Shown piece after piece: positions 56,734 through 58,271 of a stretch of 64,000 nt of DNA. Source of the stretch: Pholiota molesta (taxonomy: Eukaryota; Basidiomycota; Agaricomycetes; Agaricales; Strophariaceae); NCBI GenBank assembly GCA_014925825.1, contig JACGCK010000003.1:248001-312000 (forward strand). Reading direction: 5' to 3'. Under the pieces are notes generated by a model. The model saw only the letters and a list, made by a program, of their open reading frames with translations. It made no database searches and had not been told where the DNA came from. A program made the position numbers and the translations under genes. Each line of letters begins with the position of its first letter. Position 1 is the stretch's first letter.

Positions 56734-57184
56734 ATGTTATTCTCCTCTCGTTACCTCGCTGTTATCTCGTTATTCCTCTTGACGTCGTCGGTGGCAGCTG
56801 CCCCTGTGGGTTATCCCTTCCTCGACATCATGCCCTGCAATAGCTTAACTGACTTATCCTTCTCTAGATCGCGAAGGCTGCCTCCGAAATTGCAGAGCGC
56901 GGCAGCTCCGACTGGAGGCGGGATGCCCCCACTGAAGATTGGAGACGATCGGAAGATGTTGAGGCCCGCGGCAGCGTCGGTCCAGGTACGACCGACTGGA
57001 AACGGTCAGAGAACGAGGCTCGCGGCGGCATAGGCGCGACCGACTGGAACGGTCAGAGAACGAGGCTCGCGGCGGCATAGGCGCGACCGACTGGAAGCGG
57101 TCAGAAACTGAGGCTCGCAGCGGCATAGAGGGGTCCGACTGGAGGCGATCAGAAATTGAGGCGCGCATCCAGTCGGACTGGTGA
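56734..57184 (+). CDS. secreted Kex2-type repeat peptide precursor (frame interrupted once)
   Basis: This is a small secreted protein whose likely fate is proteolytic release of short peptides. Exons are 56734..56805 and 56868..57184. The first encodes the signal peptide (MLFSSRYLAVISLFLLTSSV, then AAAP). The second holds repeat units starting DWRR or DWKR: DWRRDAPTE, DWRRSEDVEARGSVGPGTT, two units DWKRSENEARGGIGAT, DWKRSETEARSGIEGS, DWRRSEIEARIQS, then a terminal DW and stop. Dibasic KR/RR sites at constant spacing are classic Kex2 cleavage points; after trimming, peptides would end in DW. Coding length is 389 nt, one short of a multiple of three. The fourth unit lacks one base near 57049, and the frame is otherwise perfect. 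Nucleotide repeats of 48 nt are nearly identical. The family is not identified; it is not one I recognise as a named toxin or pheromone. Confidence 0.78.
56990..57170 (+). repeat. tandem coding repeats, about 48 nt per unit
   Basis: Successive near-identical copies begin with CGACTGGAA, one unit per peptide. The first two full units differ by only one missing base. The later units diverge at a few positions. Confidence 0.85.
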
Positions 57185-58271
57185 ATGGCTTTGGGGATAC
57201 TTGAACGTGAGCCTATTTTCTCTCTCTTCGGCTGTACGTCAAGGACTAATGGCAAAGTTTAGCCAGTGGACACATTGCCATTGCCTGTTCCTCGTCGCGT
57301 ACTGCGCCTTGTGGGCATTAAAAGGACTCGTAGCCCGCGGCTGTTGACCATGATCGTTTCGACACAACCTATCATCCTGCATACCCCCCTGGCGACCTTA
57401 ATGCCTACGACACTCTTTATCCACTAGTTTAACTTCGGCTTCTCGCTCTCCAACTATTGGTAGAACCTGCACAATCTTTCTTATTTCGCCTGTTGTTTTA
57501 GGATACTTGGCCTTATGATTATACCTCTCTGACTTTTTTCCGTTCATGTTTTTTTTTTTCACATCAATGTATTGCTAAGATTGAAGATTGATTGTTGCGC
57601 AGTGAGACCGTTGACTAAGTGTTGAGAAAAGCTAAAACCGACGCTTAGTTCACACATATAGGAAGATCAGATGTTGTAGTCTTTTCTTGTCAATGCATAC
57701 CCTGGAACATTGGAACCTGTCTACGCCAAAGGGTTGCATCTGCGTTAACCCCGGCTTCTGCAAAGTATGGCGGCAGGTACTCCATTAGGCGAGCGAGCCG
57801 CGAGGTATCCGTCTGCATCCGTTGAATTGGTCAAGGATTGGTCGAAAAAGGAATGGCCGAACTGATTTCATGCAGTCAAGCCGAGAGGAGATAAAGAGGA
57901 CCGAGTGTTCGCCCTCAATTTTGGCGTCAATTGTTTGCTTCATTACAGCGATTCCCGAGACTCCGGGAGTGAATAGAAGTGAATACTATGTTTTATCGGA
58001 CATATAAGTGCAGTGCTTCAGGTACTCCTGTAAATTGGTGTGCTTATGTGGGTATGTATGTGAACAACATACCCTCCTTAGGACAGCGACAATTGTCAAG
58101 GCAGTGGGTGAAGATGTGTATTTATGCCTCCAACTGGACTTATTCCAGAAGGCTGTGACAAGAAAATTGTGTGTGAATGCGATTGGTGTCAAGGGTGTGA
58201 GTCGCCGTGTTATCAACTGAACGACGGACTGTTTATATGACAAAGGTCGCGATGACTTAAAGCCAGGGCAA
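57185..58271. other. intergenic, no gene seen
   Basis: About 1.1 kb. It contains a T-run near 57550-57558 and scattered short frames. No repeat or RNA gene was recognised. Confidence 0.5.

Follow-up and report, generated by a model that had tools for sequence, protein, structure and literature searches.

In the genome of Pholiota molesta, a stretch of 64,000 nucleotides (contig JACGCK010000003.1, positions 248,001 to 312,000, called the window below) holds at its positions 56734 to 57184 a gene that very probably encodes a Kex2-processed repeat protein (KEP). Judged from its sequence, it is a new KEP of the kind whose peptides end in Asp-Trp (DW), distinguished by a recurring spacer, S-E-x(1-2)-E-A-R, and by a frame break within the repeats. 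The features of the gene are as follows.

56734 to 56805, plus strand: exon 1, predicted signal peptide MLFSSRYLAVISLFLLTSSVAAAP (translation and hydropathy scan).
56806 to 56867, plus strand: intron of 62 nucleotides, donor GTGGGT, acceptor CTAG, phase 0 (predicted from the sequence).
56868 to 57080, plus strand: exon 2 in frame 0, with units 1 to 4, three DW(K/R)R motifs, then DWNGQRTRLAAA and a stop (translation).
56889 to 56921, plus strand: unit 1, IAERGSSDWRR (translation).
56922 to 56948, plus strand: unit 2, DAPTEDWRR, opening with a STE13-type X-A dipeptide (translation; motif as in PMC9769878).
56949 to 57005, plus strand: unit 3, SEDVEARGSVGPGTTDWKR (translation).
57006 to 57052, plus strand: unit 4, 47 nucleotides against 48, one base short at about 57048 to 57050, the frame break.
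57053 to 57184, plus strand: units 5 to 7, SENEARGGIGATDWKR, SETEARSGIEGSDWRR and SEIEARIQSDW-stop, open only in the second frame (translation).

As read from the sequence, the gene consists of two exons, with an ATG at 56734, a TGA stop ending at 57184 and an intron between. Its predicted N-terminus, MLFSSRYLAVISLFLLTSSVAAA, resembles the signal peptide expected of a KEP, a hydrophobic stretch being followed by AAA in the translation and hydropathy scan. The intron holds three YTNAY sites and a branch-like CTGAC at 56849, and exon 2 opens at 56868 in phase 0. Asp-Trp occurs at seven positions in exon 2 (56910, 56937, 56994, 57042, 57089, 57137, and 57176). Five of the seven stand before a basic pair, in the order RR, RR, KR, KR, RR, which gives the repeated units of a KEP; the DW at 57042 runs into Asn-Gly at the frame break and the one at 57176 into the stop codon. 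The cores end in SSDW, TEDW, TTDW, ATDW (twice), GSDW, and QSDW, and the translated units contain neither Tyr nor Cys. Tandem Repeats Finder reported a 48-nucleotide repeat in 3.8 copies from 56989 to 57167 with 88% matches. In the six frames of the window DW(K/R)R occurs nine times, and since five of these lie within 239 bases (56910 to 57148), the other four being isolated, the pattern is not due to chance.

An earlier note, made from the same DNA, had described a secreted Kex2-processed repeat precursor, and this class is well supported by the gene anatomy; its start, its end, the signal-peptide-like beginning, the two-exon structure, the five DW(K/R)R, and the 48-nucleotide repeats were likewise found in the sequence. 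Its count of five units was right for DW(K/R)R, while the DW positions number seven. The repeated segment S-E-x(1-2)-E-A-R had been overlooked. This segment precedes the core in five of the seven units (3 to 7); in unit 1 its place is taken by A-E-R, and unit 2 is without the motif.

From the sequence we infer how the precursor would be secreted, cleaved, and trimmed, and what it may do. The signal peptide would take it into the secretory pathway, where a kexin would cut after each (K/R)R and a Kex1-type carboxypeptidase would strip the basic pair, so that linear peptides with an Asp-Trp end would remain. These would probably be shortened by kexin or a monobasic protease cutting once more, after the single Arg of the spacer; dibasic cuts alone would give peptides of the SENEARGGIGATDW type, the single-Arg cut those of the GGIGATDW type. 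The shorter cores predicted in this way are GSSDW, GSVGPGTTDW, GGIGATDW (twice), SGIEGSDW, and IQSDW, which resemble SGVAADW of Pleurotus (PMC9769878) both in length and in their last residues. Expression of three KEPs from Coprinopsis in Pichia reportedly gave products that seem to have been cut after a single Arg (PMC9769878). The action of the peptides would most likely be extracellular, either in signalling or in the interaction with other organisms.

After the basic pair, unit 2 begins with D-A, an X-A start, and four others (3, 4, 6, and 7) begin with S-E. STE13-type X-A or X-P starts were thus found in only one of five units preceded by a basic pair, too few for a KEP of the STE13 type. 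Digested Kex2 sites over-represent acidic and small residues at P1'-P2' (PMC2515848), and the S-E or D-A after the basic pairs agrees with this preference. A wider proposal is possible, if rather doubtful: a two-step mushroom DW system in which the single-Arg spacer would replace the STE13 dipeptides and fast-diverging peptides would share only the DW tag. The variation among the units speaks for a KEP. Within the block made of SE, EAR, DW, and the basic pair, seven nucleotide columns vary, six of them at third codon positions and the seventh being the K/R swap; the hypergeometric P for the third-position excess is 0.0017, a value that is flattered, since the columns were chosen as conserved. 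Units 5 and 6 differ by 10 nucleotides in eight codons, of which two are silent, one is the K/R change, and five change amino acids in the spacer or core.

Some points weigh against reading the gene in this way. The single-Arg cut would follow from a pattern only, which is absent from unit 2 and replaced by AER in unit 1. Choosing the motif columns by their conservation biases the count towards silent changes. As sequenced, moreover, the frame break leaves only three units with a basic pair in the main frame.

The frame break lies in unit 4 (57006 to 57052), which has 47 nucleotides where units 5 and 6 have 48 and which is identical to unit 5 save for the missing base. Because unit 4 is one base short, the frame from the ATG passes through three DW(K/R)R into DWNGQRTRLAAA and ends at 57080. 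Another frame, which runs to the stop at 57184, holds the two remaining DW(K/R)R and the terminal DW. For the letters as given, a single open frame with five units was rejected, as the units lie in two frames, and the earlier claim that all of them are linked in one open frame was not borne out: the end coordinate given for the gene belongs to the stop codon of this other frame, which means that two frames had been joined unnoticed. With the sequence as given, three DW units still end in a basic pair.

Three explanations of the break were weighed. That the break is a mistake of base calling or assembly among nearly identical tandem repeats, and that the gene in truth has one open frame, seems to us evenly balanced: units 4 and 5 are the same apart from one base and the frame past the break stays open to the DW-stop, but the break site is no long homopolymer. 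It may also be that this strain has truly lost the base and that the gene is a decaying KEP on its way to a pseudogene, with up to three DW peptides left; this is a serious possibility, although we would not call it the probable one. The shortfall of unit 4, the single copy of the gene in the assembly, and the lack of a convincing intron around the break are in keeping with decay. Units 5 to 7, however, stay open, retain DW(K/R)R, and finish exactly at the DW-stop, and the break falls between the two most similar repeat copies; since units 5 to 7 are open with DW(K/R)R kept, the break must be either very young or an error. An additional intron within the repeats, for example 56986 to 57080 (GTACGA...CATAG), could skip the break and join the frames, which we consider unlikely. 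In silico, 33 GT-AG pairs join both frames, but with so many candidates such joining is easy by chance, and none of the 27 pairs of at least 40 nucleotides to which the branch-site test was applied (six shorter pairs were left out) holds a YTNAY, against three in the first intron.

Candidate processing enzymes for a KEP are present in the genome, as matches to the P_proprotein and DPPIV_N profiles indicate. In a profile search of the assembly, P_proprotein, the kexin P-domain, matched twice on contig C333, twice on C315, and once on C444, as expected for a genome with kexin; the assignment to kexin rests on these P-domain matches, the enzyme searches having covered P_proprotein and DPPIV_N. 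The 6-kb stretch C333:690500-696500 is 98% identical to C315:1635-7625, and the assembly therefore seems to keep both haplotypes in places. The C315 copy is probably a haplotig, which would leave three kexin loci, the number given for Coprinopsis and other agaricomycetes (PMC9769878). Two adjoining kexin-P-domain genes on C333 are those duplicated on C315. DPPIV_N (STE13 family) matched on C56 and C456.

The earlier note had left open that the product is a modified cyclic peptide and had advised looking for a modifying enzyme (DUF3328/UstYa) beyond the window. Precursors of dikaritins (ustiloxin, asperipin, phomopsin), which are made with UstYa enzymes, share their layout with this gene, and the genome does hold UstYa genes: an assembly-wide search gave 11 matches, ten of them above the cut-off, on C79, C33, C94, C135, and C168. 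None of the 11, however, lies on the contig that carries the gene (C223), so the enzyme neighbour of a dikaritin precursor was not found there, and the units, unlike those of dikaritins, contain no Tyr. Open reading frames with WD40 domains lie upstream of the gene and others with MCM domains downstream of it, and a Myb domain is also found among the neighbours. We take the WD40 and MCM neighbours to be PRP17 and MCM3. Furthermore, only 103 of 1680 basidiomycete KEPs have DUF3328 neighbours (PMC7329392), and the DW peptides already described were found in linear form (PMC9769878). A dikaritin-type product is accordingly very improbable, and this option of the earlier note is disfavoured.

The UstYa matches may mark clusters for modified peptides of their own, with two each at C79:442240-454923, C33:50329-63236, and C135:288501-289936; further matches are at C94:49416-49652 and C168:109634-110548, the latter stretch with internal stops. 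A crude scan for repeated dibasic sites covered seven stretches of C79, C94, C135, C168, and C33, two of C223 downstream, and the window. It found no repeat precursor in the UstYa-contig stretches, C33 at 50 kb being outside its coverage, and its two matches were the present gene and a low-complexity stretch on C223. A stricter version gave nothing, this gene included.

Protein and DNA searches of the 65.6-Mb assembly returned only this gene and no paralogue. A second haplotype copy was considered and rejected: the precursor occurs once in the assembly, though the C333/C315 haplotig exists. Three genome-wide searches with two-motif patterns, which left out a GAT start with a long gap, gave 2, 1, and 1 matches, all four of which lie in this gene, while the reversed controls gave 3, 0, and 3; as the counts do not exceed the controls, only the clustering of the matches in this gene is informative. 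The first single-motif pattern gave 67 matches against 57 in its control and was unsuited to the codons of this gene. The published Lentinula edodes core, set in five tandem copies against the genome, matched only poorly, at two places (E 1.06 and 7.1, with internal stops), neither of them in this gene.

Some further observations concern the surroundings of the gene. Two 9.9-kb stretches on C378 and C32, which carry partial MCM3 copies, share with the window nothing beyond the 3' part of MCM3. These copies of the MCM3-like gene, both from its 3' part (C378:212694-214231 and C32:96971-97196), consist of pieces 85-95% identical and were perhaps captured by a mobile element; over 1.5 kb the sequences around the two are about 93% alike. 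A minus-strand open reading frame of 134 amino acids (56854 to 57258) lies opposite the repeats and is regarded as chance. A bacterial promoter scan of the window was set aside as inapplicable to a fungus.

The gene is one more ordinary member of a class in which 7878 KEPs were counted in 1461 strains (PMC7329392). Six Coprinopsis kep knockouts had no visible phenotype, no antibacterial activity of synthetic peptides was observed, and the main study of DW-ending KEP peptides, which edible mushrooms make, reports no function for them (PMC9769878). Going by its title, a review of mushroom peptides (PMC10417677) also treats such peptides. The natural core variants of this gene would make a set for testing recognition of the DW end.

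Repeats processed by Kex2 and Kex1 are also found in ascomycete alpha-pheromone precursors, some of which have a C-terminal Trp (PCW, PMC6339444). The STE2 receptor search of the genome gave no match (0 of 1), and its controls also matched nowhere. The earlier note had called the precursor novel and its DW end distinctive, but DW-ending KEP peptides are already published: peptides in -AADW were found by mass spectrometry in fruiting bodies of L. edodes, Pleurotus ostreatus, and P. eryngii (PMC9769878). The Asp-Trp core end of these proteins is found in the present gene as well, while -AADW is at none of its seven unit ends. KEP 2599 of L. edodes, with seven repeats of SGTGEASAADW and the peptide confirmed in fruiting bodies (PMC9769878), shares with this gene tandem cores between Kex2 sites and Asp-Trp ends; it repeats a single core in -AADW, whereas here the cores diverge and end in -SDW, -EDW, or -TDW. 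In KEP 1091723 of P. ostreatus and KEP 1439342 of P. eryngii (SGVAADW and MSGVAADW; PMC9769878) a core of 7 to 8 amino acids ending in DW follows a spacer, as with SGIEGSDW and GGIGATDW here. The Pleurotus spacer consists of successive STE13 X-A/X-P dipeptides, in contrast to the S-E-x(1-2)-E-A-R of this gene, in which unit 2 alone has an X-A start; in the available parts of the KEP literature covered, the latter spacer is not described, no search having been aimed at the spacer itself. A relative whose cores diverge while its DW end stays constant would suggest that recognition concerns this end.
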